Part shown: piece by piece, positions 26,401 through 50,174 of the stretch
Layout: each line of letters begins with the position of its first letter
Numbering within the stretch: the first letter of the stretch is position 1
Source: Thermincola carboxydiphila
GTDB lineage: Bacteria > Bacillota > Thermincolia > Thermincolales > UBA2595
DNA: 64,000 nucleotides
Assembly (NCBI GenBank): GCA_016841725.1
Contig: JAENYP010000001.1
Coordinates: 248,001 to 312,000 of the forward strand
Direction: 5' to 3'
Position numbers and translations under genes: made by a program
Notes under the pieces: generated by a model
The model's database searches: none
Told to the model about the DNA's origin: nothing
Seen by the model: the letters and a program-made list of their open reading frames with translations, nothing else

Positions 26401-28933
26401 CCGTAATGGGCGCTTGTTTGCTTACCGTGCCATCACTGAAGGTTCCTGTTCCTGCAGTAATCTCAAAAGTAATCAGGGTCCCGTCAGGAAGCGGGATACC
26501 ACCGGCATCATTCACTTCTGCAGTAACTGTGGAGTTCGTGGTATTGTTGGCCGGAATGTTATCAGGCAGAACCGTCATAGCAATGGTCTGTGCCGGTGGA
26601 TAAAAGGTTACCTGTGCAGACCCGGTCACTGTTGTCCCGTTAACTGTTCCGGTCACTGTTGCAATTCCGGAGGTCCCGGACTTCAGGTCTGCTGTGGCAG
26701 TACCCGTAACATCTGTTTCAGCAGTAGCTGTAGAGGTTCCGGTCGACACAAATGTCCCTAAGTCAGTGGAAAAATCAACTGTCTTCCCTGCCATCACATT
26801 GCCATACTGGTCGGTAAGCAGTGCAGTAACAGCTGCTGTGGAAACATTATCATAAGGCACGGAAGTGGGTGCAGCCGTTATCTCTAAATTTTCCGGAGCC
26901 GGAACGGTCCTTAAGGTTACCGTAGCCCCTGAGTAAGGTACACCGGAATAAGTGTTCCCGGCCACGTCCTGGCCTGTAACTGAGATTGCCGCTGTATCCC
27001 CGTCATCAGCAATACTGACTTCCCATTCATATTTCCAGGCACCGGTGGCGGCATCCCAGGCAAATGCTTTACTGGCGATATCATTTGCCGTTCCCGGTGC
27101 ATCAATGGAGACTGTATTCACACCAGACGCCATGCTTAGAAACTCATTGGTAACAAGCTTGATATAGGTGGTTCCGGCCTTGACAACGGGTTTCCCGCCG
27201 GAAAGCGGCAGAGGGGTTGTCAAACCGGCATCTGAGTAATACTCCAGGCCCAGGACCGGCTCTGTTGTATCAATCCTGACAACCTCCCCGCTCTCCGGAG
27301 CCCCTGTAGTCTCATTCCCGGCCAGATCTGTTCCCTTCACGGTAATGGCAATGGTGTTCCCATCACTGCCGGCAGAAACTGTCCAGGGATAAACCCAGGT
27401 GCCCGTTATTTCATCCCAGGTAAAGTTGGCATTGGAAATATCATTGTTTATTCCTATCGCATCAATACTGATCTGATTAGCCCCGCCGGCAGAACTCAGC
27501 GACTCATCTGCACTCAGCCTTACATATACCGTACCGGCTTTAGCCGCGGGAATGCCGCCGGAAACCGGCAGCGGCTCGGTCAGGGCGCTATTGGAATAAT
27601 ACTCCAGGCTCAGGGTTGGCGCTGTATTATCAACGATAACGGTAATATAGCTGCCCGTCATACAGGTGCCTGCGGCATCGGTAACCACTGCCCTGATATA
27701 GCGTGTCCCGTCACCCATTGAGGATGTATCAAAAGAAGCAGCGGTCCATGTACCGTCAGTAACCGTCCCCAGGGTCAGTTCTGCTCCGGTGACTGTAGCC
27801 GCTCCGCTGAATGCGGTATTGTCTGCCCACTCAAAAACAACCGAACTGACCTTCATATTATCTGTGGCTGTGGCTTTAAGGTCAAGGACGCCCCTGATAC
27901 GGGCCGAATCAACAGGTGAAGTCACTGCGGCCGTATCCGGCGCCGTATTATCTATATAATAAGTAAAGTAACTTCCGGAGATTACTGCAGCATTAACCCC
28001 ATCAGCAGCCCTGGCCCTGACATAATAGGTCCCGTTAAGGCCCGTAGTATCCCAGTTTATCCCCCAAACACCGTTTTTAACGGTTCCGGAAGCAAGTGTG
28101 GCCCCTGACAGAGTTGTGGCCCCTGTAAATGCAGGGTTGTCAGCATACTCAAAATCAACCAGGGTGACTCCAAAATCGTCACTGCCGGATGCCGCTAGTG
28201 TTATCGTGCCTTTTTGGCTGCTCAGATCAGCAGGTGAAGAGATACTTACTGTGGGAGCACTATCTGTATAGACAGCATTTAAAACCACATCATCCCAGTT
28301 AACGGCAATACTGGAAGTACCGTATCTCTGAGCCTGATGCTGGGCATCAACAATCAGGCGGAGCTGGTATGTGGTATTTGGCTCCAGCCCGGTGACATCA
28401 GCCGAGTAAGGGGTCCCCCCCCAGGGAACACTGACAGTGGCTGAATCAATCACCGCACCGTAATTGATCACAGTTGTGCCCGTAGAGTTCATAACCTGCC
28501 ACTTGAGGTCACACTTGCTGACATTGGTTGTCCCGGATGAACCCGGAATAATACTTATCAGCTTGTTATAGTACAGGCTCAGGGTTGCTGTAAAATCAGC
28601 CACATCCGGTGTGGTAAAAGAATACCTGTACCCGCCGTTTAATGTCCGTGCCGTAACCCCATATCCTGATGTAATGCTGCTGGACTGCCCGGCAGAATAC
28701 GTGCCTGACTTGAAGGTACTGCTGTCCTGGGCATAACTCCAAACTGTATCCCCGCTGTCAAAATCACGCAGCCAGCTATTGTAGTGGTTTGAAGGATCGA
28801 GGTCTTCAAAATCCCCCTCACCGTTTAGTATATCTATAGTTACCTGTGCCGCCCCGGCTCCAATTACCTGGTAACCGGCAACTGCCGCAATTACCAGGAT
28901 CAGGCCTATACCGATAATTATTTTTTTCCGCAT
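23489..28933 (-). CDS. Giant 15-haem cytochrome with multi-domain Ig-like stalk
   Basis: The protein has 1814 residues. A signal/anchor (KKIIIGIGLILVIAAVAGY) is followed by a beta domain, two Ig-like repeats (SISSPADL..., VTSPVDSARIRG...), two larger tandem repeats (LEYYSNSALTEPLPVSGG and LEYYSDAGLTTPLPLSGG), three invasin/Big_1-like domains (e.g. VTALLTDQYGNVMAG) and an SbsA-like domain with VYLTFSE-type strands. The last ~620 residues hold 15 CXXCH motifs beginning CGQCHSAH with PHG upstream. The extreme C-terminus has an odd CTSSDPACTSKH with no complete CXXCH. It resembles an adhesin-like rod carrying a long haem domain at its tip. A 5' leader with promoter and terminator lies upstream; the second ResB/CcsB set follows. 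Confidence 0.93.
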   Translation of the reverse strand: MRKKIIIGIGLILVIAAVAGYQVIGAGAAQVTIDILNGEGDFEDLDPSNHYNSWLRDFDSGDTVWSYAQDSSTFKSGTYSAGQSSSITSGYGVTARTLNGGYRYSFTTPDVADFTATLSLYYNKLISIIPGSSGTTNVSKCDLKWQVMNSTGTTVINYGAVIDSATVSVPWGGTPYSADVTGLEPNTTYQLRLIVDAQHQAQRYGTSSIAVNWDDVVLNAVYTDSAPTVSISSPADLSSQKGTITLAASGSDDFGVTLVDFEYADNPAFTGATTLSGATLASGTVKNGVWGINWDTTGLNGTYYVRARAADGVNAAVISGSYFTYYIDNTAPDTAAVTSPVDSARIRGVLDLKATATDNMKVSSVVFEWADNTAFSGAATVTGAELTLGTVTDGTWTAASFDTSSMGDGTRYIRAVVTDAAGTCMTGSYITVIVDNTAPTLSLEYYSNSALTEPLPVSGGIPAAKAGTVYVRLSADESLSSAGGANQISIDAIGINNDISNANFTWDEITGTWVYPWTVSAGSDGNTIAITVKGTDLAGNETTGAPESGEVVRIDTTEPVLGLEYYSDAGLTTPLPLSGGKPVVKAGTTYIKLVTNEFLSMASGVNTVSIDAPGTANDIASKAFAWDAATGAWKYEWEVSIADDGDTAAISVTGQDVAGNTYSGVPYSGATVTLRTVPAPENLEITAAPTSVPYDNVSTAAVTALLTDQYGNVMAGKTVDFSTDLGTFVSTGTSTATAETDVTGTATADLKSGTSGIATVTGTVNGTTVTGSAQVTFYPPAQTIAMTVLPDNIPANNTTNSTVTAEVNDAGGIPLPDGTLITFEITAGTGTFSDGTVSKQAPITGGLGRASVQVKSGTVGTVTVRVFLDGSNNTADIHFVAQEVSSAEVSPVPSVIDADGTDAAAITAVFFDQYGVPMQSPLSVTFATTLGDLSSSTAVTDSSGEAVVSLTSVSAGEAKVKVTYSPNGVSAFVEVTLRVPDNIPPALIKAEATSKQLIYLTFSEPVSFDPDPPVNWAIYKYVSGEEFTVAYQAPELIDADRRIARVALAEGVDQDPGNQYPNPERYKVMVNGVYDLRENVIDTVYNYAYWDSYTPHGKYSKVNATDLNNTMLCGQCHSAHSAVGTRLVNGSTIQQVCFICHGTGGISVYKVQEEFTGRTADGSTMSYTLHRSLDDAGYNFLYCTDCHNPHGDKRPGTNNIYPKLLRVADVAGTVYTQGNGVCLGCHGDGAGGKALGTSVSMAVYWDEIGGSHAWGMGVDGSPLPGFQPIPHYSESYTDMSPDSRTDVTCVNCHERHGSQYRSLIDNSLAGNDREDLCFKCHNNFTPNTMSGEDIQAKFGLTSTHEINDPLNTGLTCSSCHGPHSIAGRPFAESGSAAPAAISDPENTKQNWYRSDTQDMAGYCNKCHNVPDSGGIPLYSEPLTAVTSANKIRPFTINYGSLSISNFGYSWNKKEYFDITSSTKAGHYNPTRSSALDPVMCDNCHDPHGSEYVRLSKYDEDTSGGPSSDGMCLRCHGDIAGSPGDDVSRLDVWSNGFEQPSKHPIFSSTGIHVDIENLGTAARHVECVDCHDPHAAREDSADNLSGPLLNVSGVTRSGSSLTEVNPAAEDWEICYKCHSDYWGNLDGSRDIAAEFYRTATTGSTSGVYSFHFVELTSNPNASANVSLHLVAGAVDHEGNSWTNTSKMYCTDCHGTPSGARGPHGSPNPGLLKGSYDTSIETRADLPSDFICFRCHDETWYKTGHVDRNPAHVTASCKKCHGIKVHGANRAHIIRTNNPADESYDPESVIDSAVPHPDELVWQNCTSSDPACTSKH

Positions 28934-32445: not shown

Positions 32446-35265
32446 TTATTTAACCTCTTCTTTACTCTTCATCATCCCGTCGGCAACTGTGGAGCATGGC
32501 GCTCCATGGGCCGATGCCAGCATCTCGGCAGTTGCAGCCGAACACCCCTGGCCGGGATGTCCATCTCCGGCAGCTGGGTGACCATGACCGATGGCTGGGT
32601 GGCCGATACCTGTTGTAGGATATGCCCCGGCTGAGTCATGGCCCCGCCGGTGGCCTGCCAGTATCCAGTCCTTAACACTGGTCGGCTCAAGGCCAAAGCC
32701 CAGAAGATTACCCTGTGCCCTACCGATTATCTCAAACCCGCCATCTGTCTCATAGCCAATATTGTCGGTTTGCACAGCCAGTACCGTAGCCCGGTTAGTC
32801 AGATCATAATGCCGGATCAGCCCTATTTCCCCTTGGGGCAGCCGCTGCCCGGTCCTGGGGCCGACCACAACAGTCCTGGTCCAGGGAGGGGCAACCTTGT
32901 AACGTTCCTTTTCCACAAAACCATTGAAAAAGTTCCTGATAGTATTATCAAAATAGTTTGTCCCACTTTCACTCATCCCCAGGGTATTTATACACATTTT
33001 GGGGGATACCCCCAGGTACTCCTGACACCTGGCATAGAAATCATCCCGGGAACAATCGCCAAAAGTGGCCTGGTAACCTCCGCCGTCACAAATCCTGCTT
33101 CCTTCCGGGAGCCTAAAGCTAATTCCTTTTTCAATACAGTTGTTAAAGAAATGCACAAATCCGGAGGTCGCTCCAACTATAGCAACAGGTGTGCCATTTT
33201 TCTCAGCCTCACGTAAGGCCTCAATCAAGGCTTCGGTCTCAAAACCGTTAGGGGTAATAAAATACATACTGTCTTCGGTCCCAAACTCATTTTTCATTTG
33301 CTCCAATCCGAAGGCCATGGCCATTGCCGGCACCACCTTTGGGGAGGGAACCAGGAGCAGAATCCGCATCCGGTCAGTATCAGGAAACAAAAGGGATTTG
33401 GTAATCATCTTATTAGCCTGCAAAATCATATCCAGGCTGCCTTTATCGCGGTAAATTTTCCCCCTCATACCCGGATCGGTGGTCCCACTGGTCAATAAAG
33501 CCAGTTCGGCATCCTTTAAGGGAAATGAGGTAATTACATGCTCTTTGAAGGCAGAGGTGGGAATCGCAGGTATCTCAGACCAATGTCCCACAGTATCCGG
33601 AGTACGCTCCTGTTTCTTACAATACTCCCGGTAAACGGAACCGGCCATAAACTGAATCCTGAATTCCCTTAGCGCTAAGAAGTTAAATTTTTCTTCACCA
33701 TGGTAATTCAGGCCCTCTTCAATAAATTCAACTATATCGGCATCAAGCTCCCCTGATAGTCTGGCAGCTTCTTGCTCATTAACCATCTGGCCGTCCTCCT
33801 TCTTACTCATCCCAATTATGGAATCTATAATATTGCCCATTTCAGCAGGCAGTGATATCGTGTTTTTCCCGAAATTACTGACAAAAAAGTGAGTATGCAT
33901 GATTCGAACCGATTTCAACATATAGTCCTTCTTAAAACCGTCTTCCATCAATACCAACTGCTGCACCTTATTAAGGTAAAACACCCGGAAGCAGTTAATC
34001 AATGCTGACCATAAGCGTGGTATTTCCATTTGTGCTGGCTTTATCACCGGATAAACAAAATGGTATTTGGAGTAATCGTTTTCAACTATGTATTCCCTTA
34101 CCTGGTCATACATTTTGGTATAAGGCCACGGGGTCAGCAGCAAAAAATGTGCCAGGTCAGGTGCATAGTCCAGCGCTGTCTGCAGGGTTTTTTCAATATC
34201 CTCTTCAGTATCATCGGGATTCCCTATAATAAAAGAACATTCGGTAATAATATCATGCCGGTTTAAAAGGTCAATGGCCCTGCGGGATATATCAACCGTC
34301 AGCCCTTTTCCGAAATCATCCAGGGTTTTCTGATGTACTGTTTCCACACCCACATATATATGGACAATCCCTGCCTTTCTATATTTGTGCAGGATGTCAC
34401 TGTCCCTGATAACCGCATCTGCCCTTGTCTCCAGACTGACATGGATATCAAGCCCTTTAGAAATAAGCAGGTCCAGTACCTTTTCCCAAACCTCCCGCTC
34501 ACAGGTAGCAAATTCATCAGCCATCATAAACATACCGATGCCATAATCCCTGTGCAGGCTCTCCAGTTCTGCGACAAAGTTCTCAGGTGTCCTGGTGCGG
34601 TAGGAACCCTTCCAGAACAGGTGCTGGGAGCAAAAACTGCAGCTATGCGGGCATCCCCGTGACAACCCCACCAGAGCCAGCCGTCTTCCGGTTACATTAT
34701 ATTTATACAAGTCCCAGTCCAGCAAGTCCCATGCCGGGATAAGGCTGTCCAGATCAGGAGTAAATTCCCGCTCGGGGGTCATCCTGACAGAACCATTGGC
34801 AAACCAGGCCAGTCCTCTGACATGGTTGGGTGTAACCCCATGATTAATGGCCTGTGCCAGTTCCACAACGGTCTGCTCTCCCTCACCCCTTACTATATAA
34901 TCGATGACTCCGGGCATTTCCTTTAGTAATTCGCGGCTGCAGAAGGTGGCGTGAATACCGCCGAGACAGGTTACCATACCCGGGTTAATTTCCTTTGCGG
35001 CCTTCAGAACCTCAACAGCGGCATTAATGCTTGATGTAAAACTTCCGATCATAACCAGATCCGGGTTCTCCTCTGAGATAACCTTTCTGACTTCATTGAT
35101 ATCATGGTCCAGGGACATGGCATCATATATAGTAACCTGGAAACCGCCTGCCCTCAGGTGACCTGCCAGGTATACAAGGCTTAGCGGCGGCCATTTTCCG
35201 GTAACTTCAATTATGCCGGTATGGTATGGAGGTGTTACCAGAAGGATATTCAGTGACATAGACAA
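32446..35265 (-). CDS. B12-binding radical SAM / LuxE-like acyl-protein synthetase fusion
   Basis: The protein has 939 residues. Residues 1-130 form a B12-binding-like domain (LLVTPPYHTGIIEVTGKWPP; MIGSFTSSINAAVEVLKAA). Residues ~195-420 are a radical SAM core with CPHSCSFC and an EFATCERE region. From about 510 to 860 it resembles LuxE/acyl-protein synthetase, an adenylating enzyme, with LLTSGTTDPGMRGKIYRD, VGATSGFVHFF and GMSESGTNYFD. A final ~60-residue tail is rich in GHP/GHG. Radical SAM enzymes with B12 domains catalyse methyl transfer or ring and thioether chemistry, and LuxE-type enzymes activate carboxylates. The fusion is unusual to me and no product can be named. It lies between the 35-haem gene and a TPR operon and starts at ATG 35265. 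Confidence 0.85.
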   Translation of the reverse strand: MSMSLNILLVTPPYHTGIIEVTGKWPPLSLVYLAGHLRAGGFQVTIYDAMSLDHDINEVRKVISEENPDLVMIGSFTSSINAAVEVLKAAKEINPGMVTCLGGIHATFCSRELLKEMPGVIDYIVRGEGEQTVVELAQAINHGVTPNHVRGLAWFANGSVRMTPEREFTPDLDSLIPAWDLLDWDLYKYNVTGRRLALVGLSRGCPHSCSFCSQHLFWKGSYRTRTPENFVAELESLHRDYGIGMFMMADEFATCEREVWEKVLDLLISKGLDIHVSLETRADAVIRDSDILHKYRKAGIVHIYVGVETVHQKTLDDFGKGLTVDISRRAIDLLNRHDIITECSFIIGNPDDTEEDIEKTLQTALDYAPDLAHFLLLTPWPYTKMYDQVREYIVENDYSKYHFVYPVIKPAQMEIPRLWSALINCFRVFYLNKVQQLVLMEDGFKKDYMLKSVRIMHTHFFVSNFGKNTISLPAEMGNIIDSIIGMSKKEDGQMVNEQEAARLSGELDADIVEFIEEGLNYHGEEKFNFLALREFRIQFMAGSVYREYCKKQERTPDTVGHWSEIPAIPTSAFKEHVITSFPLKDAELALLTSGTTDPGMRGKIYRDKGSLDMILQANKMITKSLLFPDTDRMRILLLVPSPKVVPAMAMAFGLEQMKNEFGTEDSMYFITPNGFETEALIEALREAEKNGTPVAIVGATSGFVHFFNNCIEKGISFRLPEGSRICDGGGYQATFGDCSRDDFYARCQEYLGVSPKMCINTLGMSESGTNYFDNTIRNFFNGFVEKERYKVAPPWTRTVVVGPRTGQRLPQGEIGLIRHYDLTNRATVLAVQTDNIGYETDGGFEIIGRAQGNLLGFGLEPTSVKDWILAGHRRGHDSAGAYPTTGIGHPAIGHGHPAAGDGHPGQGCSAATAEMLASAHGAPCSTVADGMMKSKEEVK

Positions 35266-35283
35266 AAGCTCCTTTTATTTAAA

Positions 35284-35305
35284 GCTGTGCCTTAGAGGGC
35301 ACAGC
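35284..35305 (-). other. Hairpin directly before the radical SAM-LuxE ribosome site
   Basis: GCTGTGCC and GGCACAGC form a perfect eight-pair stem, with AAAAGGAGC just downstream on the minus strand. The same stem sequence recurs at 35449-35487. Confidence 0.6.
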
Positions 35306-35448
35306 CGATAATTCAAATTAAAACTTTTATTCAGTGGAGAAATCTTACCGAGTTGTATATTTCGACATCTCTTTCCATTATCCTTCTATATCAGGCAGCC
35401 AGTTATTACCGGTAATATTAGTATTACTTTCCTTAGGAGTTTTTGCCT

Positions 35449-35487
35449 GTTCAAAGCTGTGCCTGTGACCGGCACAGCTTTATGAAC
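35449..35487 (-). terminator. Long hairpin after the 35-haem cytochrome gene
   Basis: GTTCAAAGCTGTGCC pairs with GGCACAGCTT plus TGAAC around a seven-base loop (about 15 pairs, one small bulge), 28 nt after the 35-haem stop. It lacks a T-run. It may terminate weakly or protect the transcript. Confidence 0.55.
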
Positions 35488-35515
35488 TTATTGGTCTTCC
35501 TTGCAAAATACCAGT

Positions 35516-38500
35516 TTATCTTCCGTTTCGCTTCTGGGAACCAGACCCTTCGCCGCCCCGCTGGTGGGAAACAGATTGGTGGCAGCTTGTGCAGCTATAT
35601 TCTTTTACAGTTGTGTTGGAACTGAGATTCTGCTCGATGACCGCTGTGGTAATGGCTATAGCAGGATTGGCTGTATGGCAGACGACACAGTTTCCGTTAT
35701 GTGCCAAAACAACATCATTAGCGCCATTGCCGTGACAATTGATACAACCTTCACTATTAATAACCTGGTGCAGTTTCAGGTGTGTTTTGGCATCAGACCC
35801 GTTGTGGCATAAGGTACAGCTGTAAGTATTACTCTCACCAACCATGGGATTAATAATCTCCTGAATACCTGTATTACCGTGACAGGTATTGCAGCCACCC
35901 TCATGGACAGCAGATCCCTGACCGGTGAAAACATATTCTGTACCGGCTGTAATGTTAAAGGTATGACACACGCTGCAATCAAGGTTCTCCTGCTCGATAT
36001 CCTGGACAGCCTTGTGTTCAGGCAGGTGAGCAGCATCCCGGGTTACCGGGTAGCCATCTGCCGTATCACCGTTGTGGCAGTCACTGCAATAAATGGAAGT
36101 TGATCCGTTTACAAGCATATCAAGCTCTCCGTCCCTGGCAATGACTTCACCATAAAACGGCTCAGTATGGCATGCGGCGCAGTCTTTATCATACGCGTTA
36201 TGAAGTTCAGCCAATTCCGTATCGCCACTGGCAGAATCAGCAGCGTGGCAGGCAGCACAGTTTACTTCCTCAGGTTCCTCGTAAACAACTACGTTATGGG
36301 TGTGGTCTCCTTCCCCATGACAGCCCTGGCAGCTTACATCACCCGAGGCAATTGCCCCTTTTACCGAATCCCTGGCTGTTGTCCCGTGACAGGAGTCACA
36401 GGTCACTGTAGAACTGCTGCGTTTCTTATGCACGGCAAGGAGATTCTGCCCTGCAGCTGAATCATCTGTCTGGTGACAGTTAAGACAGAAAGCGGTATCC
36501 GGATAAAGCGCGGTATCAGCGTCATGGAAAGGTTTATGAGTTTCCGCCATATCCATTTCAGCATTGACTGAGGCGTCATGACAGCCTTCACAGGATACAT
36601 CAAGACCTACCACTGCAGGTTTAAATCGCTCATCAGTATGGCAGGCACCACATCCAACAGTGACAGCTGAATGGATGTCTATTAAGGAGTCGGCATGACA
36701 GGTACTGCAGTCAGGGCTGTATTCAGGCATAAATACCGGGAACAAATCCACCTCATGCTCCGGAGAGTATTGGGTTTCCGGGTGTTTTGCAGGTGCGGAA
36801 ACATCATTATGACATGCTTCACAGGCTGTCAAACCGGTGCTGATTTGATCTCCTACCGGTGCATCCGGGTCGTGGCACACACCACAGGTATATTCCTGGT
36901 TTAAAGTGATATTTGGCTCCACATGAACCCCTATGAGGTTATTTAAAGCATAGGTCTCATTGGTGGATGTATGGCACCAGGAACAGTCAACCGGCTTATC
37001 TGCAGCAATAAGGTCTGTCATTGACAAATCTGTGGTGCTTTGATGCATTGTGGCAATATCCCCATGACATGCGGAACATGAATAACCTGGGACAGGGACA
37101 TTGGCCCTAATGGGGTCAATATCAATCCGGTATTGACCATCAACCACTCCATGGCAGGTTTCACAGGACAATGGATGGTAGCCTACAATCTGTTCTCCAT
37201 CAGCCTGGTGAACAGGATAATATGGTGATGTGCCTTTTTCATGGTCTTCCAGGTGACAAGCCGAACAGTCGTAACCGTTACCGTCTTTTACATCTTCCTT
37301 CAGATCAGCAATAAGACTCTTATAGGCCTCGTTGTGGCAGTCTGTACATTTCAGGTGGAAGGCGGTTGTATCTTCATATTGAACCCCTTCAAAAGCGGCC
37401 TGGTGGCCTGATGATAAGTCAGTATGGCATTCTGTACAGGAATATCTGTCACTGCGGCCATCGGCAATGATTGTGTTAATCACTGCGGCAAATGCAGTGC
37501 CCGGAGTATGACATGATGCACAACTCGTATGTACATCCATAACAGCCATCTGCTGACCACTGTAATCCGCGCTGTGAACCGGAGCCTTGGGATTGGAACC
37601 GGTGGTGCCGTCACCGTTGTGGCAGTCAAGGCATGAATAGTTTTTAACTGAACTGCCCGCAAGTTCAGCAATGTCAGGAAGAATTTCCTGCCTCTGATGA
37701 CAGGTATTGCAGGAATCGTGCGGTGCCCCGTCAACCCGCAGATTGTTGCTTTCTGTGGCAATGTGGAAAAGTGGATGCTCTTCGGGTACTGGAATAACTC
37801 CGGCATTAAAGTGACACTTGTCACAGGAGCGGTTGGCTGCAATGTTGTCGGCAGTATCGATTACATTAAGTACGGCCGGATTGGTGGATTTGTGACAGGC
37901 CATACAGTCTTTATCCTGATTTGCGTGTTCAACATCAAGAGTACTGTTATGACATCCTGAACAATCTACCGGATATATACCGGTCAGTTGTAAGGTAAAT
38001 GATAATTCGTCAGGTAAAGTGGTGTTGTGAAATGACGTCAACTGTGCTGCGGTATGTCCTGTCTTGTCTGTAATATGGCAGCCGAGGCAAAGGTTGGTAG
38101 TATCTGTCGGACCCGAAGGCACAATCCCGGAATCATAATAGCCATGACATTTCGAGGCAGAACAGGTTAGTTCTTCCGGCCCCCAACTGATTCCCGTAGC
38201 TACAGTATAAGTTTTATAATCTGTGATTTGGGTACTGCCGTGCTGTTGGTGAGCCACAGGCTTATGACAGGCTTCACAGGTAGCAGCCCTGTGGCAATTA
38301 CCGCAATAACCGGTATTTGCCGGGGTATTCTTACCATTGTGGTAATTGTGAATGTCAGGAGGGCCTACCAGAAGGCTGGCAGTGCTTCTGAAATAGCCGG
38401 CATTGGGAACATATACTGCCGTCCATTTGGGGTACGGGTGGTCTTCATTAACCAAAAACCCCTCATGACAAACTTTACAGGTATCAGCTGGGGCAGGTGA

Positions 38501-38638
38501 TGCCAAAGTGAAATCACTTACCACTGTACCGTGACACTTGGTACAGTCTGTCAGGTCCGTCTCCGCACTGGCACTGTTCATAAATGAAAAACAGATGACA
38601 ACAATTAAGGTGAAAATTAGTAAAATTAATTTTTTCAG
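35516..38638 (-). CDS. Giant 35-haem c-type cytochrome (probable CTG start)
   Basis: From the first ATG (38581) the protein lacks a full signal peptide. Upstream in frame is KKLILLIFTLIVVICFSFMN, a perfect one, starting at CTG 38638 (8 nt after AAGGAGG) or ATT 38641 (5 nt after). The CTG aligns with the ATG of the paralogue at 40842 (MKKK). The mature part (about 1015 residues) carries 34 CXXCH and one CX4CH (CSASKCH) motif and almost no haem-free domain, roughly one haem per 29 residues. The first ~220 residues closely match the 16-haem protein (shared AVYVPNAGYF and NGKNTPAN). Size and density suit a long-range electron wire or store across the cell wall. Its redox partner is unknown. Confidence 0.93.
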   Translation of the reverse strand: MKKLILLIFTLIVVICFSFMNSASAETDLTDCTKCHGTVVSDFTLASPAPADTCKVCHEGFLVNEDHPYPKWTAVYVPNAGYFRSTASLLVGPPDIHNYHNGKNTPANTGYCGNCHRAATCEACHKPVAHQQHGSTQITDYKTYTVATGISWGPEELTCSASKCHGYYDSGIVPSGPTDTTNLCLGCHITDKTGHTAAQLTSFHNTTLPDELSFTLQLTGIYPVDCSGCHNSTLDVEHANQDKDCMACHKSTNPAVLNVIDTADNIAANRSCDKCHFNAGVIPVPEEHPLFHIATESNNLRVDGAPHDSCNTCHQRQEILPDIAELAGSSVKNYSCLDCHNGDGTTGSNPKAPVHSADYSGQQMAVMDVHTSCASCHTPGTAFAAVINTIIADGRSDRYSCTECHTDLSSGHQAAFEGVQYEDTTAFHLKCTDCHNEAYKSLIADLKEDVKDGNGYDCSACHLEDHEKGTSPYYPVHQADGEQIVGYHPLSCETCHGVVDGQYRIDIDPIRANVPVPGYSCSACHGDIATMHQSTTDLSMTDLIAADKPVDCSWCHTSTNETYALNNLIGVHVEPNITLNQEYTCGVCHDPDAPVGDQISTGLTACEACHNDVSAPAKHPETQYSPEHEVDLFPVFMPEYSPDCSTCHADSLIDIHSAVTVGCGACHTDERFKPAVVGLDVSCEGCHDASVNAEMDMAETHKPFHDADTALYPDTAFCLNCHQTDDSAAGQNLLAVHKKRSSSTVTCDSCHGTTARDSVKGAIASGDVSCQGCHGEGDHTHNVVVYEEPEEVNCAACHAADSASGDTELAELHNAYDKDCAACHTEPFYGEVIARDGELDMLVNGSTSIYCSDCHNGDTADGYPVTRDAAHLPEHKAVQDIEQENLDCSVCHTFNITAGTEYVFTGQGSAVHEGGCNTCHGNTGIQEIINPMVGESNTYSCTLCHNGSDAKTHLKLHQVINSEGCINCHGNGANDVVLAHNGNCVVCHTANPAIAITTAVIEQNLSSNTTVKEYSCTSCHQSVSHQRGGEGSGSQKRNGR

Positions 38639-38641
38639 AAT

Positions 38642-38991
38642 CGTTACCTCCTTTCTAGCAATTTTTGATTCAACTAATACCCGTTTCTATTCACCTCCTC
38701 TCACTTGTTACAAGTGAAAACAATCATTTGATTTATCAATTAAAGACAACAAAAATTGCTCACCTTTACTGGCAGCAAATTTAATTAGCCTCTATATTAT
38801 AATCGTGAGCCAAACAAAACAGGTTTAACCTTTGTCCATTTATTGGCTCCTATTTTTGGTTTTTTTTCCATCTTATTATACCACTAGATGTCATCAAATT
38901 TCAATAGTATCAAATCAGGAACAAAATTTAAGCCGGTACTTCAATAGCGTACCGACTTAAGATCAATTTGAGACAAATCCGTATATTTTAT
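38642..38991. other. Gene-free region between the 35- and 16-haem genes
   Basis: These 350 bases hold the 16-haem terminator (38921-38960), a palindrome TCACTTGTTACAAGTGA at 38701-38717 that could be an operator, a GAGGAGGTG sequence at about 38690-38700 that resembles an unused ribosome site, and the true AAGGAGG at 38647-38653. A TATAAT lies near 38800, without a matching -35. Confidence 0.55.
38921..38960 (-). terminator. Intrinsic terminator of the 16-haem gene
   Basis: TTAAGTCGGTAC and GTACCGGCTTAA pair with one mismatch on the minus strand, followed by ATTTTGTT. Confidence 0.75.
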
Positions 38992-40842
38992 TTACTTGTA
39001 CAAAATCTCTAACCTATAGCCGTCGGGTAAAACTGGAGAGGTCAGATGGTTTTCACCACCATAAAAGAACACAGTGGCATTTCTCCGGTCCTTTTTAAAC
39101 TGGGCCTTAAAGCTATCTTCGTTCAGTTCCAATGCAGGCAGTGTCCATCCGTTTGCAGCCATCTGTTTCTGATAATAATTCCAAACCGTTTCCCTGCTCA
39201 CTATTAACCTGTTGGAAATAAGCAGTTTACCACCCTCGTATCCGGTCGGCATCCATTCCTCGCCTGACCATATATCGGCAGGTTGCGGCAATGACCACTG
39301 ATACCCGGCGTATAGTGGAATGTCTGCAGGTATCTTCTGTACCAGATTAAAGTTATGGGCTACATCATGGCAGGCAATGCAATCGGTATTGCCCGTCACT
39401 ACTGCTGTCTTCACCGTTTCATTTGGGCTCTGATGACAGGTCACACAGTTTAAGGGATTATCGGCATTTCCCGCCTGAGTAATACTGTTGTTAAGGTGTT
39501 CCTCAGTTAAAACTGGTTTGTGACACACCTTTGTACAGTTGCTGTCAATTTCTCCTGTATGTCCGGCATCCAATGAAGCCCCAAAATGGCATTCGGTACA
39601 GGAATAGTCACTGCCATTATTAACCTGCAAAGCTATTGTCTCGACCTTGGCAGCGGCATTTGTCCCCGGAGTATGACAGGTCGCGCAGCCTGGGTGAACG
39701 TCCAGCAACCCCATATACTCTCCGTCAAGCCTGGCAGTGTGTTCCGGAGCAAGACCAGTTTCCTGATTGTGACAGGTAAAACAGTCGTACTTTCTCTCAG
39801 TAATAGGTAACCTTGCAAGGTCTTCTATCTTTGTCAGCAAATTAGTTCTGGCGTGACAGGTATTGCAATCCGAGTGGGCCCCGGCGGATATATCCAGATT
39901 GTCACTTAAGACAGCCTTATGATACGTCAGGTGTTCTGCGGGCCGTTCTGGGAGTACAGCTACATTAAAATGGCACACTCTACAGCTCCGGTTCGCATTT
40001 TTCATTGTTATATCAGTCAGCCCGCTATTTACAGTTTTAATCACCTGAACGGCATCCTGAACAGGCAGTTTGGCAGATGCCATGTGGCAGTAGCCGCATT
40101 CTGTATCTTCAGGCTGACTTAATTCCTGAGCAACCAGTTTATGTTCTACCGCCAAGTTTCCGGTATGGCAGCCTTCACATGAAATAACATTCTCAGTGAT
40201 CCCTAGCCTTAAGGTTTGGTTAGCCGAGTTATGAAAAGGTTCCAGGCGTTCCGGAGTATGACCAGTTTTATCAGTACTGTGGCAGTTTATACAAAGCTGC
40301 TCCCCATCAGTCCTGTTAATTACGACACCGGTGCTATAAAAACCATGACAGGTTTCAGTAGAACACGAAATCGGCTTCAAGCTGTACCCAGTGCCAGTGG
40401 ACACCGTATATTTCTTCAAACTATCCACAGGTATGCTTCCATGTGTTTTATGGGTTACAGCCTTATGGCAGCTTTCGCAGTCTGCAGCAACATGGCAGTT
40501 ACGGCACCATCCTGAGTTGGCAGGAGTGTTTTTTCCATTATGGTAGCTATGAATTTTCGGAACTCCTGTGGCAATACTTCCTGAATTTTTAAAATATCCG
40601 GCATTGGGAACATAAACTGCTGTCCAACTGGGGTAAGGATGATCTTCATTAATCAAAAAACCTTCATGACAAGCTTTACAGGTATCTGCAGGAGCAGGAG
40701 GCGCTACAGCAAAGTCGCTGATAACTGTGCCATGACACTTTTGGCAATCCTCTAACCCTGCAAATGCCTGCTGATTCCCGGTAAACAACATGATAACCAA
40801 TAAAACCAGGAAGGGAATGGCATATGTAATTTTCTTTTTCAT
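38992..40842 (-). CDS. 16-haem c-type cytochrome with non-standard haem motifs and C-terminal domain
   Basis: The protein has 616 residues with a signal peptide (YAIPFLVLLVIMLFTGNQQAFA). It has 14 CXXCH motifs, one CX4CH (CSTETCH) and one CX3CH (CTKVCH). The CX4CH position is conserved with the 35-haem paralogue downstream, so it probably binds haem; the CX3CH is unusual. The last ~115 residues contain no cysteines and look like a separate alpha/beta domain (VWNYYQKQMAANGWTLP; RNATVFFYGG). The two genes are a tandem duplication of a haem block, expanded in the 35-haem protein. They have their own terminators, so each may be transcribed separately. Confidence 0.92.
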   Translation of the reverse strand: MKKKITYAIPFLVLLVIMLFTGNQQAFAGLEDCQKCHGTVISDFAVAPPAPADTCKACHEGFLINEDHPYPSWTAVYVPNAGYFKNSGSIATGVPKIHSYHNGKNTPANSGWCRNCHVAADCESCHKAVTHKTHGSIPVDSLKKYTVSTGTGYSLKPISCSTETCHGFYSTGVVINRTDGEQLCINCHSTDKTGHTPERLEPFHNSANQTLRLGITENVISCEGCHTGNLAVEHKLVAQELSQPEDTECGYCHMASAKLPVQDAVQVIKTVNSGLTDITMKNANRSCRVCHFNVAVLPERPAEHLTYHKAVLSDNLDISAGAHSDCNTCHARTNLLTKIEDLARLPITERKYDCFTCHNQETGLAPEHTARLDGEYMGLLDVHPGCATCHTPGTNAAAKVETIALQVNNGSDYSCTECHFGASLDAGHTGEIDSNCTKVCHKPVLTEEHLNNSITQAGNADNPLNCVTCHQSPNETVKTAVVTGNTDCIACHDVAHNFNLVQKIPADIPLYAGYQWSLPQPADIWSGEEWMPTGYEGGKLLISNRLIVSRETVWNYYQKQMAANGWTLPALELNEDSFKAQFKKDRRNATVFFYGGENHLTSPVLPDGYRLEILYK

Positions 40843-41029
40843 CCAAATTCCCCCTTCAATTAAGTGACAAGGCTCAACACATTACACGTCAACATGTGTA
40901 AATATTTCTATGTTAATTGTATTAGCAACAAATTTTTTCTAAGTTTATAGTAATCTTTAACGATAAACTAGTAATCCCGTAAGTATTATAATCGGTTATT
41001 GAAGTATTACTTTTCGTAGTCTTTTAAAG

Positions 41030-41062
41030 GTGAAAACAGTGCCCGGCGCTGCCACCGGGCAC
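41030..41062 (-). terminator. Intrinsic terminator after the hexahaem gene (copy 1)
   Basis: GTGCCCGG and CCGGGCAC pair perfectly; TGTTTTCACCTTT follows on the minus strand. It closes the TPR-NHL-hexahaem operon of 43.8-41.1 kb. Confidence 0.85.
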
Positions 41063-41091
41063 CATTTCCGATATCTACAAATTTAACTTAA

Positions 41092-42192
41092 TTAACTCTG
41101 ATCACTTGGTTTGTTGAACTCTGCTGCCCCATGGCAGTCATAGCATACATCCCTGTTAGTTTCCCTAAGGAGGACACTGGAGTCAGACTCGTCATCTGTT
41201 GAGCCATCACTTAACTCGTAACTTGCTGATGCACGGGTCCATACGGTATCACTGGTGGATGAACCTGTACCGTGAGCCCTGTGGCAGGTCAGACAGACCA
41301 GCTTGTCATTAACTGAAAGAGCCACCTTCTCCAGAGACTGGTGAGTCACATCCGTCGGGTTGTCAAGAGTGAAGTTCATCCGGTGCATGTACTTGTCGGC
41401 GACACTTGTGCCGGCATCATCAACAGCAACCTGACCGGCATCAGCATCCATCTGGTTGAACAGGTCATGACAGCCGGCACACCAGATACCGACATTGTCC
41501 CCATAACCGGTTACAACCTGAGTCTTAAATCCGGTCGTATCAGATGCTCCGATACTGCCAAAGGTCCAGTCCCGATGGTCATAAACTGATTCACCAACAC
41601 CACCGTTGTCGGTAGCCTCCTGGACCAGTTTTGGCAGGTCAAGCCTCAGCAGACGCGGCATAATGGTACTGGTTGCGTAATTGCCGCCCTTGTGGGGGTC
41701 ATGGCAGGAACCGCAGCGGAAGTCGCCGGTTAAGGTAGTGGTACCACCAGGGATGATTGAAGTTTCATCCCAAACATCTCCGTCATAAGTCTCCACCCCG
41801 TGGACAGATGTACTGTAGACATAATCCGTCAGGGTATAGGCATGCGAAGCATAATTATGGTTGTCGAAATCAAAGGTCTTGTAGAAACCACCGGCAACTG
41901 AAGGCATAAAACCGCCTGCTGCTGGTGTTGCAATCATCCCGTTTTTAGCATCATAAGGACTCTTGGAAAGGCTGTTATGGCAGTAGTAGCAAAAATCCGT
42001 CTGGGTTGGTCCCGAAATCAACAGGGCCGCAGCCTGACCGGCGTGGGTGACATGGCACTTGGCGCAACCCAGTGAGTTGTCGGCAAAGTCACCATGATAA
42101 TATGGTTCAACCGCCATAGCAGTTGAGGCAACAGCAGCAACCATTATCACCGCCATTACCAAAGTTAAAGCTAACTTTTTCATCATTTTCAC
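41092..42192 (-). CDS. OmcS-like hexahaem c-type cytochrome (copy 1)
   Basis: The protein has 366 residues with a clear signal peptide (LALTLVMAVIMVAAVASTAMA) and mature start VEPYYHGDF. Six CXXCH motifs follow: CAKCHVTH, CYYCH, CGSCHDPHKGG, CAGCH, CLTCHRAHGTG, CYDCH. Order, first-haem CHxxH, third-haem CHDPH and fifth-haem CHRAH all parallel OmcS as I remember it. Compared with copy 2 it lacks the extra N-terminal beta domain. Ten histidines lie outside the motifs, enough for six bis-His haems. It is 13 nt after the NHL gene in a TPR-NHL-cytochrome operon and ends at a strong terminator. Likely secreted; polymerisation is hypothesised. Confidence 0.92.
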   Translation of the reverse strand: MKMMKKLALTLVMAVIMVAAVASTAMAVEPYYHGDFADNSLGCAKCHVTHAGQAAALLISGPTQTDFCYYCHNSLSKSPYDAKNGMIATPAAGGFMPSVAGGFYKTFDFDNHNYASHAYTLTDYVYSTSVHGVETYDGDVWDETSIIPGGTTTLTGDFRCGSCHDPHKGGNYATSTIMPRLLRLDLPKLVQEATDNGGVGESVYDHRDWTFGSIGASDTTGFKTQVVTGYGDNVGIWCAGCHDLFNQMDADAGQVAVDDAGTSVADKYMHRMNFTLDNPTDVTHQSLEKVALSVNDKLVCLTCHRAHGTGSSTSDTVWTRASASYELSDGSTDDESDSSVLLRETNRDVCYDCHGAAEFNKPSDQS

Positions 42193-43881: not shown

Positions 43882-45411
43882 TTAAGTTCCTGCTTTCTTG
43901 TTGATAACCTGTGTTCTGTTTGTACTCCGGGGTGGTACTTCGGTATCTATCGTCTTTTCCTTGGGTTCGTTTTTGGGTTTAATAACCTTATGAACACTAT
44001 AGTACTTCTCATTATCCTTCCGCCTCTCCCCATGACACTTCAAACACAATTCATCATCAGAAAGCAACGTAAACTGCTCATTCTCTGTCCCATGCGGCCC
44101 ATGACAACTGGTGCAATGGAGTGTGCCTCCGCGCCAGGGATCGGTATATTTATCCCCAAAGGGGTGGTTAATCCTGGCCTTGCCTATTTCCGTATGGCAG
44201 CTGTTGCACATCGGTTCCTGCTTATCTATCAGCAGGGGTTTATACTCTGACCCGTGGGGTACGTGACAGTTGGTACAGGCTCCCAAGCCTCCTTTCCCTT
44301 CGGCTTTGGTAGCATGCTGGAGCTTTTCATAGGTACTCTCGAGTCCAAGATGGCACATATAGCATAAATCGTTCCCGGCTTTCCTTACCAGGTTGGGTCC
44401 TGGTCCCACATGCGGGTCATGACACCCGTCACAGTCCAGGAGACCGTTGCCCACCGGATGGTGGGAGGCTTTTGCAAATTCAGGCCTCATGGATGAGTGG
44501 CACAGGTAACACAGTTCTGTCCTGGTTTCGGGAAGCAGGGCCGGTTTTGCCGATGCGTGAGGAACATGACAGTTGGTACACTTTTCTTTCACCGGGGTAT
44601 GGATATACCCGTTTTTCGCACCTGCCTGTATTTTATCGTTTAAGCCATAATGGCAGCTTAAGCAGAGTCCGTTTCCCGCCACCAGTGTCAGTTTCTCACC
44701 CGGGGTCGCATGAGCGCCGTGGCAGTTAACACAGTCACCGGTCGCATAGGGCTTATGCTGGACAGGCAGCAGCAGTTCATTTTGCCTGTCATAGTGACAG
44801 GTAAAGCATAAGTCCTTACCAGGCAGCCTGGTCATACCCCTGTTTTTTGATGCATGGGGGACATGGCAGTCGGAACAGGCACCTATTTCGTAAGGTTTAT
44901 GTTTGACTGGGAAATCATAAACCAAATCCAGTTTATGGCAGGCTGTACATAAAGTAGTAGGTGATGTCCGCAACAAATACCGGTAATCGGATGCATGTGG
45001 GTCATGGCAATCTGTACAGTGTCCCAGCTGGTATGGCTTGTGCTGGTAAATATAGGTGGTTTCATCAAGCCTGTTAAAGTGACAAGTGGTACAAAGCTGG
45101 TCAATATCAACCACAAACTCGTGTTTCCCTGAACCCACATTATGCGGTGCATGGCAGTCTTTGCAGTACCACTTGACAAAGGGCGCGTGCTGAAACTGCT
45201 TGTTAAAGTCTCTGCTTTTATCTGAATGGCAGATGCCACAAACCTCTTTATCAGATTCTCTGTCAGCCAGTTTTGGCCCTGTATCGGCAGGAACTGTCTG
45301 GAAGGATTGTAAAAACTCGCTGATTTGTTGGCGAACGGCAGGCAGGGATATTAATATACCAACAACCATCACCAACAGCAAACCGAATACCAATATCCTG
45401 TTGCGTTCCAT
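43882..45411 (-). CDS. 17-haem membrane-anchored cytochrome (doubled-CXXCH repeats)
   Basis: The frame opens at 45450, but ATG 45411 (MERNRILVF) follows AAAGGAG and gives a compact N-terminal membrane anchor (ILVFGLLLVMVVGILISL). The protein then carries 17 CXXCH motifs in regular pairs (CTDCHDPHAS, CSDCHVPHAS, CTNCHVPHGS, CTSCHGPHG alternating with CxxCH), the doubled-CXXCH pattern of NrfB/MtrA-like decahaem families, ending in a Lys/Pro-rich tail. Anchored outside the membrane, it is a candidate first relay between the quinol-linked NapC-type cytochromes upstream and the wall-spanning cytochromes. A 500-nt gene-free region precedes it. Confidence 0.93.
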   Translation of the reverse strand: MERNRILVFGLLLVMVVGILISLPAVRQQISEFLQSFQTVPADTGPKLADRESDKEVCGICHSDKSRDFNKQFQHAPFVKWYCKDCHAPHNVGSGKHEFVVDIDQLCTTCHFNRLDETTYIYQHKPYQLGHCTDCHDPHASDYRYLLRTSPTTLCTACHKLDLVYDFPVKHKPYEIGACSDCHVPHASKNRGMTRLPGKDLCFTCHYDRQNELLLPVQHKPYATGDCVNCHGAHATPGEKLTLVAGNGLCLSCHYGLNDKIQAGAKNGYIHTPVKEKCTNCHVPHASAKPALLPETRTELCYLCHSSMRPEFAKASHHPVGNGLLDCDGCHDPHVGPGPNLVRKAGNDLCYMCHLGLESTYEKLQHATKAEGKGGLGACTNCHVPHGSEYKPLLIDKQEPMCNSCHTEIGKARINHPFGDKYTDPWRGGTLHCTSCHGPHGTENEQFTLLSDDELCLKCHGERRKDNEKYYSVHKVIKPKNEPKEKTIDTEVPPRSTNRTQVINKKAGT

Positions 45412-45450
45412 ACTGAACCGGCTCCTTTCGCCGTTCTTGGACCATGACAA

Positions 45451-45915: not shown

Positions 45916-47136
45916 CTATAAGCTGTTGGTATGGCATCTTGAACAGTGTGTGGTATCATGACAGTTCCAGCAGCCTTCGTTGCTGGCACCTTTTTCTTTG
46001 ACAACAGTCGGATGGTAAGTGCGCCATCCCCCCGGGTGATATTTTTCAAACTGGACTTTACCGGGTTCAGCGGGTTCCCCCTGACCGTCAGGTTGGTCCC
46101 CTCCCGCCGGATCTGTACCCGTATCCTGTTTGCTGTGACATTTGGCACAATACGTAGGTACTGCCTTGTCCTCAGATTTCGGTTTGGCATTATTGTGGCA
46201 AACCAGGCACCCCGATACGTCTCCATTGGTAACATCCTGTTTATGGATCATCCGCCAGTCCCCGGTATGCCCTGCCGGCCTTTTCTGGTGACAGTCATAA
46301 CAGAAGACATTGCCCCTGGCATACCTGGCAACAGGATCATCCGCCGGAATATCCTTAGCCTCCAGTGAATAAGAGTGGCACTTGTTACAGTAATCCAGCC
46401 CTTCATTTTCCACCAGTATACTGTGGTTTGAGTCAAACTTTGCAACCTTGTGGTCAGCCGGCATGCTGATTTGAGTATGACAGGCCTCACAGGCCTGTGT
46501 TACACTCTTAACGTCTTTTATCCCAAATTTGGCCGGTTCCATATGACATGCCAGGCATCTGTTCATTTTCGGCTCGGTAAACTCTCTGGTCATCTGTGTC
46601 CTGCCTGCTTCCACGGTCCATGCCTCATACCTGCCGTCTTCGGTAACCTTCCTGGCGGCAATGGTACCATGGGCCACCCCATCATGGCACTGAACACACA
46701 ATACATTTTTTGCGGCATGTTTATCATGCGGAATAATCAAGTCCCCAGACGGGGTAAATTCCCTTTTCATAGAATGACAGGCGGTACAGATTTGATCCTC
46801 AAGCATATGATTCATCTTAACCGGGCGGTCATATGTGCCGGTAAAATAAAGATAAAGTTCTTTTGTTGCCGATAAATTATTAATCAGAAGATTACCGATT
46901 CCCGGCTTAATATGACAGTTAGTGCATGAAATACGGGCATGTGAGGATGCTTGCCAGGTAACATATTCAGGTGTCATTACATGACACTTGGAGCAAAATT
47001 CAGGGCTCATTGTCATGCTGACAGCTCCGGCTGTAAAAACAAGCAGTATGGTTATAACTCCGCTTACAAGGACAAAGGCCTTTAAACGATCTTCTTTTAT
47101 TTCCATATTAAGCTTGAGCCTTTTAAACATCCCCAT
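45916..47136 (-). CDS. NapC/NirT-like 12-haem membrane cytochrome
   Basis: The protein has 406 residues: a membrane helix (AFVLVSGVITILLVFTAGAV) followed by the NapC/NirT opening MTMSPEFCSKCHVMTPEYVTW and SSHARISCTNCH. Twelve CXXCH motifs in all, four to five in the NapC-like part and the rest in a C-terminal extension. NapC/NirT proteins oxidise membrane quinols and pass electrons to periplasmic partners, so this is a likely menaquinol-to-cytochrome entry point. The start is ATG 47136 or ATG 47130, both close behind a G-rich site. It is paralogous to the 10-haem protein upstream, 68 nt apart. Confidence 0.92.
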   Translation of the reverse strand: MGMFKRLKLNMEIKEDRLKAFVLVSGVITILLVFTAGAVSMTMSPEFCSKCHVMTPEYVTWQASSHARISCTNCHIKPGIGNLLINNLSATKELYLYFTGTYDRPVKMNHMLEDQICTACHSMKREFTPSGDLIIPHDKHAAKNVLCVQCHDGVAHGTIAARKVTEDGRYEAWTVEAGRTQMTREFTEPKMNRCLACHMEPAKFGIKDVKSVTQACEACHTQISMPADHKVAKFDSNHSILVENEGLDYCNKCHSYSLEAKDIPADDPVARYARGNVFCYDCHQKRPAGHTGDWRMIHKQDVTNGDVSGCLVCHNNAKPKSEDKAVPTYCAKCHSKQDTGTDPAGGDQPDGQGEPAEPGKVQFEKYHPGGWRTYHPTVVKEKGASNEGCWNCHDTTHCSRCHTNSL

Positions 47137-47204: not shown

Positions 47205-48272
47205 TTACTTAAACCAGTGACAGTTGTTGCAGGCAACTTCCTTAGCAGGTGAAGGCAAAGTTTCTCCTGCCTTGGGCTTTTGAATACTGTGGCATGCGGT
47301 ACAGTTATTCATGCCTTTGCCGGCAACAGCTTCCTTATGGTTTGGCATCCACTGCGACTTATCCTTGTGGTCATCTGGCTTTTGACTATGGCAGTTAATA
47401 CAGAACTCAGTGATCCACGCAAAATCTTTTGCAGTAGCCCCTGCTTTGATAACATTATTTTTCACACCGTCAGCGGCAAATGTCGGCTCCACACCCATGG
47501 CATGGCAGCTTACACAATCCTTAAGCTGTCCGCCTGCATCCAGACCATGATTCCTGGTCCAGGTGGCTTCTTTGTGTGAATTCGGGGTAAATATGTCCTC
47601 ATGGCAGGCACCGCAATCCCAGGTAACACTCTCTATTCCTTCAACCCCATATTTGGCAGGGTTGATATGGCAGGCAACACAGGTGTCCATATCAGGCCTT
47701 ACAAACTCCATCGCCATGTTTTCCTTACCTTCCTTATCGCTCCAGGCAGCAAGTTCACCTTCTGCGGTAGCAGACCTTCCGGCAATATTACCATGGGCAA
47801 CACCCGAGTGACACTTGACACAGCCAACGCCGACCTTTTCATGATATTCATGAGGGTCCTTAAGGTCTCCTGACAGGGTAAAAGCCCTGGTTTCAACTGA
47901 GTGGCACTGTTCGCACAAGTGACTGGGAAGTTCATGCTTCATTTTGATAGGCAGTTCTTCTTCATACGCGGCAGTAATGTAATCATAGAGGTGTCCGGTG
48001 GCCACAATTTTTTCCTTCACGATGTTAATGACTCCCGGTTCCATATGACAGTCCACACATGCTATATTGCTGTGGGAAGAATACTGCCAGGTCACATACT
48101 CCGGCTGCATGGCATTATGACAAAGTTTGCAAAAGTCAGGCGACATGGTCAGTGAAATTCCGCCTACTACAGCCACCAGCAGGAATAACAACGTACCACT
48201 AACCAGAATAAATAATTTTAGCTTATCTTCAGTTTTTGACAGGTCAAACTTAAACTTATCTCTTATACCCAT
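47205..48272 (-). CDS. NapC/NirT-like 10-haem membrane cytochrome
   Basis: ATG 48272 (MGIRDKFKFDL) with GAGGGAGG upstream is preferred over the open frame to 48362. The protein has 355 residues: a membrane helix (LFILVSGTLLFLLVAVVGGI), then MSPDFCKLCHNAMQPEYVTW and CVDCHMEPG, typical NapC/NirT features, and ten CXXCH motifs overall. A quinol dehydrogenase role is inferred from the family. It is the most upstream cytochrome gene of the island, next to a polyprenyl synthase gene that may make the menaquinone tail, which supports a quinol link. Confidence 0.92.
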   Translation of the reverse strand: MGIRDKFKFDLSKTEDKLKLFILVSGTLLFLLVAVVGGISLTMSPDFCKLCHNAMQPEYVTWQYSSHSNIACVDCHMEPGVINIVKEKIVATGHLYDYITAAYEEELPIKMKHELPSHLCEQCHSVETRAFTLSGDLKDPHEYHEKVGVGCVKCHSGVAHGNIAGRSATAEGELAAWSDKEGKENMAMEFVRPDMDTCVACHINPAKYGVEGIESVTWDCGACHEDIFTPNSHKEATWTRNHGLDAGGQLKDCVSCHAMGVEPTFAADGVKNNVIKAGATAKDFAWITEFCINCHSQKPDDHKDKSQWMPNHKEAVAGKGMNNCTACHSIQKPKAGETLPSPAKEVACNNCHWFK

Positions 48273-48495
48273 CTTAAACCAGCCTCCCTCAACCGTTAGA
48301 TTTCTTGCACTACAAATCACATTCCATCCAAAAAAAATTAAGAATCTTATTAGAGCCAGCATTACTCCGGATTCTTGTCTGTGAACCTATTCTACGCAAA
48401 ATAACAAAACCCTTCTTTTGTTTGGAATTTTTTGATTAGTAGGTAAATTCATACAAAACAAATGTCTGGCCTTTTGTTGGCGATTTTTTCTTTTT

Positions 48496-50076: not shown

Positions 50077-50174
50077 GGGAGCGGAGTGGGCCTGGTGGCT
50101 CGCCTGGTCTTCAAAACCAGTTGACGGGCAGCGATCCTGTCCGTGGTGGGTTCGATTCCCACACGTTCCCGCCA
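50077..50174 (+). tRNA. selC: tRNA-Sec (anticodon TCA)
   Basis: The 98-nt RNA ends in an encoded GCCA. The acceptor strands GGGAGCG and CGTTCCC pair with one wobble. The anticodon stem CTGGT/ACCAG closes the loop CTTCAAA with TCA. A long variable arm (CGGGCAG with CTGTCCG) and a T arm GTGGG-TTCGATT-CCCAC follow. The long acceptor/T coaxial arrangement and the extended D stem are typical of selenocysteine tRNA. The organism therefore probably makes selenoproteins; selA, selB and selD are not in the window. Confidence 0.96.

Follow-up and report, generated by a model that had tools for sequence, protein, structure and literature searches.

Comparison of the gene with its homologues points, with good confidence, to a secreted 35-haem cytochrome, the last of an extracellular-electron-transfer cluster in Thermincola, being translated from a CTG codon (38638-38636), with a long Shine-Dalgarno (SD) sequence that would rescue the start and an upper start codon that would have been lost. 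The gene lies in the window, a 64,000-nt stretch of a 3.88-Mb draft genome, to whose genus the named relative Thermincola ferriacetica also belongs. Positions are those of the window, and features lie on the minus strand unless marked (+). Gene callers that take only ATG, GTG and TTG would begin this protein at 38581 and remove its signal peptide; stripped in this way, a 35-haem cytochrome would pass for a cytoplasmic protein, and a survey of electroactive bacteria might overlook it. In addition, a natural CUG start behind a near-perfect SD tests whether SD strength pays for a bad codon.

The coding sequence, from CTG to stop, spans 35516-38638 and specifies 1040 amino acids, as read from the frame and from its homologue in the same-genus genome G002. 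The open frame (35516-38686) begins after an in-frame TAG (38689-38687) and continues AAA CGG GTA TTA GTT GAA TCA AAA ATT GCT AGA AAG GAG GTA ACG ATT CTG AAA AAA TTA ATT. Its first 35 codons contain no ATG, GTG or TTG, i.e. none stands ahead of the hydrophobic leader, and its first ATG (38581-38579) would give a protein beginning MNSASAETD... A sequence-only reading of the region had proposed a complete leader preceded by AAGGAGG, with only CTG or ATT available as start. The frame, checked codon by codon, agrees: GGAGG lies 8 nt upstream of the CTG (38636-38638) and 5 nt upstream of the ATT (38639-38641). The same reading had placed the CTG opposite the ATG of the 14-haem paralogue (38992-40842), as the alignment of LKKL.. 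with MKKK.. also does. No other NTG supplies the conserved N-terminus, the SD is at a workable spacing and the start position is conserved. These features of the sequence support a leader that requires a non-standard start codon.

As that reading had counted, the protein carries 35 haem sites, made up of 34 CXXCH motifs and one CX4CH (CSASKCH) whose Cys, Cys and His are invariant across the family alignment. The putative signal peptide, MKKLILLIFTLIVVICFSFMNSASA (38564-38638), was identified by eye and by hydropathy and is likely cut before ETD. Maximum hydropathy over 15 residues is 3.21 for the CTG form vs 0.69 for the first-ATG form, so the earlier claim that starting at 38581 costs most of the signal sequence holds. 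With many CXXCH motifs and an export signal, the protein has the features of a secreted multihaem c-type cytochrome. Against NCBIfam profiles it scores below the curated cut-offs for DmsE (58.7 vs 192.2), OmcA-MtrC (29.6 vs 209.3) and HmcA (55.7 vs 400).

Relatives were surveyed in ten genomes of the class, and seven genes in six genomes were readable: the window gene and six others from five relatives (G001, G002a, G002b, G003, G007 and G009). A scan of genome contigs found only three close relatives. The window protein is 84-86% identical, over almost its full length and without stops, to a same-genus gene (G002:C6:115748-118792). Each member has a single CX4CH, accompanied by 34 CXXCH in both the window (start CTG) and G002a (TTG), 73 in G002b (2557 aa; TTG), 58 in G009 (GTG), 67 in G007 (TTG), 24 in G001 (TTG) and at least 40 in G003, which belongs to another genus and is cut by a contig end (CTG). 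The leader is present in all relatives. The window CTG is aligned with the TTG, GTG or CTG starts of the six other members; the aligned codon is never ATG (0/7), and a perfect SD match of 9-11 nt precedes each. CTG itself occurs only in the window and G003, the remaining members having TTG or GTG, and in G059, a relative from outside the class, the position is occupied by ATG. Since start position, SD and leader recur in six homologous genes of five genomes, the arrangement is more than chance. The 2557-aa cytochrome with 73 CXXCH and one CX4CH (locus L087, G002:C6, start near 292) adjoins the 35-haem orthologue and is apparently a tandem relative.

Start usage across the genome was sampled by sequence patterns. 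Among 31 sites combining an SD, an NTG and Lys-Lys, CTG occurs in just two, the other of which opens a 6-aa ORF; CTG starts are not in general use here. Codons other than ATG often follow a strong SD in this genome, at about half of the sampled sites. Of 46 AAGGAGG-N5-9-CTG sites, the sole other plausible gene without ATG, GTG or TTG is ppsR, for which a CTG start was rejected: an ATC at 8 nt fits better than the CTG at 5 nt (G000:C24, about 5330-5375). In the Thermincola group the SD of this gene (PF03618), which lies downstream of ccpN, is followed by none of ATG, GTG and TTG; its apparent start is ATA in G007 and G005, and several further families of the phylum use ATT or ATA (loci compared: L141, L193-L198, L200, L201, L215, L218, L224 and L225). 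An AUA start is reported for the neighbouring ccpN in S. aureus and B. subtilis (PMC13009471), and we found no report in the literature of a non-canonical start for ppsR.

The window gene could instead be translated from the ATT one codon upstream (38641-38639), as an infC/pcnB-type AUU start. This codon is in frame with the leader, AUU and AUA starts with extended SDs are documented in Firmicutes (PMC13009471) and ppsR in these bacteria apparently starts at ATC, ATA or ATT. On the other hand, a spacing of 5 nt is short for an 11-nt SD, most apparent ppsR ATH starts and the NTG starts of G002 and G003 having about 8 nt, and the ATT position reads TAT in both G002 and G003. Because that position is unconserved, CTG is the likelier start; the 8-nt spacing shared with G002 and G003 and the conserved NTG position support it as the better candidate, and we consider initiation at ATT unlikely.

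The CTG might also stem from a mistake in sequencing or assembly, the true codon being TTG or ATG, or from a recent mutation that removed the start of a now decaying gene. Either codon is one base change away from CTG, yet the 1040-codon frame is intact with its 35 haem sites and its stop-free identity to G002, the SD and leader are intact as well, and G003 has CTG at the same place. That a different genus carries this codon weakens the worry about sequencing error, though G003 has an in-frame ATG 16 codons upstream. Translation may begin at that ATG and read the CTG as an internal Leu, and this second CTG is for that reason not an independent proof. Taken in blocks of 100 residues, identity between the window protein and G002a is 49% in the first, 59% in the second and 85-97% thereafter, and the 5' part of the gene (the first ~215 residues) may have been exchanged as a block, in which case the CTG would not be a simple point change from TTG. 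Overall, an error or decaying start appears distinctly unlikely, and a genuine CTG remains the preferred reading.

The N-terminal part also resembles that of the 14-haem neighbour. Between mature residues ~28 and 110 (window 38309-38554 and about 40510-40758, with the matching genes of G001, G002, G003, G007 and G009), the giant cytochrome is 57-82% identical to its 14-haem neighbour in the same genome, and giant orthologues are 28-61% identical across genomes in most comparisons. Past residue 215 the likeness reverses, giant orthologues being closer to each other than to the same-genome 14-haem neighbour. Four-fold sites of the two genes within a genome are near saturation, G007 excepted, and recent gene conversion as the source of the common domain was therefore rejected in 5/6 genomes. 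The pattern suggests that giant and 14-haem proteins must carry matching N-terminal domains.

Two SDs precede the start. The proximal one (SD2; AGAAAGGAGGT, 38646-38656) is an 11-nt perfect match to the 16S tail used (-17.6 kcal/mol), and ranks in the strongest 11% of 88 nearby genes. The distal one (SD1; AGGAGGTGA, 38691-38699; -21.6 kcal/mol) is kept in all members: a second strong SD lies at -61 to -71 in 7/7, 42-54 nt above SD2. It reads AGGAGGTGA in the window and G009, identically or nearly so in G002, and AAGGGGGTGA, with G-U pairing, in G001, G003 and G007, with duplex energies of -18 to -22 kcal/mol. Among 92 control genes called in the same loci, the sole distal SD below -14 kcal/mol belonged to the G059 family member, and the best of an unrelated gene reached -13.7 kcal/mol. 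The out-of-class G059 has both SDs and a TTG in frame after SD1.

In each relative one standard start stands in range after SD1 (ATG in G002a, G002b and G003, GTG in G001 and G009, TTG in G007), and in 6/6 genes it shares the frame of the lower start, which it extends by 15-19 codons free of stops. Counting G002a and G002b as one, the chance of 5/5 being both open and in frame is ~1e-4, by a hand estimate that takes one third for frame and ~0.45 for openness. The six related genes thus have dual in-frame starts, and the window gene has lost the upper one: a TAG (38687-38689) closes the extension that all six relatives leave open, and, by comparison, GTA (38678-38680) stands where G002 has its upstream in-frame ATG, 13 nt after GGAGG. 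The fold of the 5' region has a z of -1.8, and SD1 could pair with a stretch of the leader coding sequence, UUUUCACCUU, that is not common to the relatives.

We propose the following course of events. The CTG is the only NTG able to supply the leader, at a position with a non-ATG start in all seven members. CUG accounts for 0.024% of bacterial starts and in E. coli supports 0.86% of the output obtained with AUG (PMC11497404), and weak starts tend to go with stronger SDs (PMC5622118). As fMet-tRNA would pair poorly with CUG, the start would be rescued by the unusually long SD (AGAAAGGAGGU) at good spacing. In the relatives, SD1 is likeliest a second initiation site, giving one protein two sites; a start there would add 15-19 leader residues and leave the mature protein unchanged. 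The window lineage would have lost its upper start codon, so that all product would come from the CTG, and SD1, a relic or a standby site, could do no more than give ribosomes a place to land. Output would be modest, limited by the start codon and not by ribosome recruitment.

More broadly, the giant cytochromes of the class might share a conserved tandem start device, in which two SDs and two weak in-frame starts tune the amount of a very haem-costly protein and which the window lineage would have stripped to one CUG, a serious possibility that we entertain without favouring. If it is true, the window lineage offers a natural experiment on the working of the device. The tandem SD, seen beyond the class, suggests translational control of giant cytochromes, of which we found no description in the literature; what is new is this arrangement, Firmicutes being already known to use non-AUG starts behind extended SDs.

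A different role for SD1 is that it drives a leader peptide, the CTG being reached by re-initiation. An out-of-frame mini-ORF, TTG AAT CAA AAA TTG CTA GAA AGG AGG TAA (38673-38644), has its stop overlapping SD2 and 5 nt ahead of the CTG, and uORF control is known in Firmicutes. A distance of 21 nt, however, separates its TTG from SD1, more than normal initiation allows, and the relatives carry an in-frame start in place of the mini-ORF, which is for these reasons probably meaningless; we regard this mechanism as most unlikely. A start at ATG 38581 or later, with a protein not secreted by this leader, is the choice of a gene caller limited to ATG, GTG and TTG, and is scarcely credible: no SD-like stretch lies ahead of 38581, the leader recurs in the relatives and the product would have no signal peptide, although a protein must be exported for haem to be attached to its CXXCH motifs (c-type cytochrome maturation).

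The CTG start with its strong SD may bear on how much protein is made. ATG starts are found in 18/19 small cytochromes of these clusters, 3/6 14-haem and 0/7 giant ones; Fisher's test of 18/19 vs 0/7 gives p 1.2e-5, a value that ignores relatedness among genomes and genes that are not independent. As about half of the sampled strong-SD sites in the genome are non-ATG, 0/7 in the family is only moderately surprising. Members with 59-74 haem sites combine a TTG or GTG start with a second upstream start. The earlier suggestion of a rare start that holds down the synthesis of a haem-costly protein stands in part: starts do weaken with haem number, as they would if costlier proteins had weaker starts. 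The rank of SD2 and the second upstream starts, however, speak against scarcity. Since strong SDs and a second site would favour ribosome recruitment, the weak codon may serve to adjust synthesis of the giant cytochromes and not to shut it off.

The neighbours of the gene run in the order 10-haem, 12-haem and 17-haem cytochromes, TPR and NHL-type proteins, and 6-haem, 14-haem and 35-haem cytochromes. In Thermincola, an extracellular-electron-transfer cluster reaches from ImdcA (Tfer_0070, 10 haems) to CwcA (Tfer_0075, 6 haems) (PMC7911101). The 10-haem gene (47205-48386) matches ImdcA (Tfer_0070/TherJR_1117) by order and haem number, and the 6-haem gene (41092-42192) matches CwcA (Tfer_0075/TherJR_1122) by position and haem number, which makes these genes the candidate counterpart of the ImdcA-CwcA pathway cluster (PMC7911101). 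Between them lie, by profile, a 12-haem NapC/NrfH-like cytochrome (45916-47136) and a 17-haem cytochrome with a DmsE-type decahaem profile (43882-45450). Matched by order and haem number, the giant gene would be the last cytochrome gene of this cluster.

The ATG-started 14-haem paralogue adjoins the giant gene in all relatives examined, at a gap of roughly 270-440 nt judged from coordinates. In the window, a terminator-like inverted repeat with a loop of 9, followed by AAATTTTG, was read 3' of the 14-haem gene (38930-38958), and G002 has a similar one. A promoter-like site (TTGAAA-18-TATAAT, 11/12, TG before the -10; 38875-38904) found by scanning would imply a 5' UTR of ~230 nt; such sites are no more numerous than chance, making the candidate weak. 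Gap, repeat and promoter-like site together indicate that the giant gene probably forms its own transcription unit. An Rfam scan of 35200-41200 gave no match.

Other genes were noted around the cluster. Directly after the giant gene, 32446-35265 encodes a 939-aa protein whose B12-binding radical SAM part resembles BchE/HpnR, at scores below the cut-offs, and is succeeded by a LuxE-like acyl-protein synthetase part. Downstream of the cluster, a 1814-residue frame with 15 CXXCH (23489-28933) is another very large cytochrome. A tRNA-Sec gene (50077-50174, (+)) indicates that the organism probably makes selenoproteins.

Several known systems can be compared with this gene. A stretch of the protein (677-741) has distant similarity, at an E-value of 6e-4 only, to the sixteen-haem cytochrome PDB 1z1n, with 16 haems vs 35 haem sites here. 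In E. coli, infC starts at AUU. So does pcnB of the same species (cited in PMC13009471). Both resemble the window gene in having a rare start codon thought to limit expression, and differ in being regulatory genes with AUU, not CUG. To our knowledge, neither has a tandem SD. Upstream standby sites (Espah Borujeni et al., PMC3936740) are, like SD1, ribosome-binding stretches above an SD that may change initiation; unlike them, SD1 is itself a near-perfect SD, with its own start codon in relatives. Within the genus, the 58-haem cytochrome reported for T. ferriacetica (PMC7096707), a possible member of this family, and the ImdcA/CwcA cluster (PMC7911101) offer the same cluster order and a very long multihaem protein, with 58 haems vs 35 haem sites. 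Experiments in S. aureus have shown that conserved AUA and AUU starts, directed by extended SDs, reach about 10% of the expression of AUG when the medium is poor (PMC13009471). The window gene differs from these sites in its probable CUG start, its giant secreted cytochrome product and its second strong SD upstream; with infC (AUA), ccpN (AUA) and cvfC1 (AUU) of that species (PMC13009471) it shares a weak codon, a long start-proximal SD and conservation across species.
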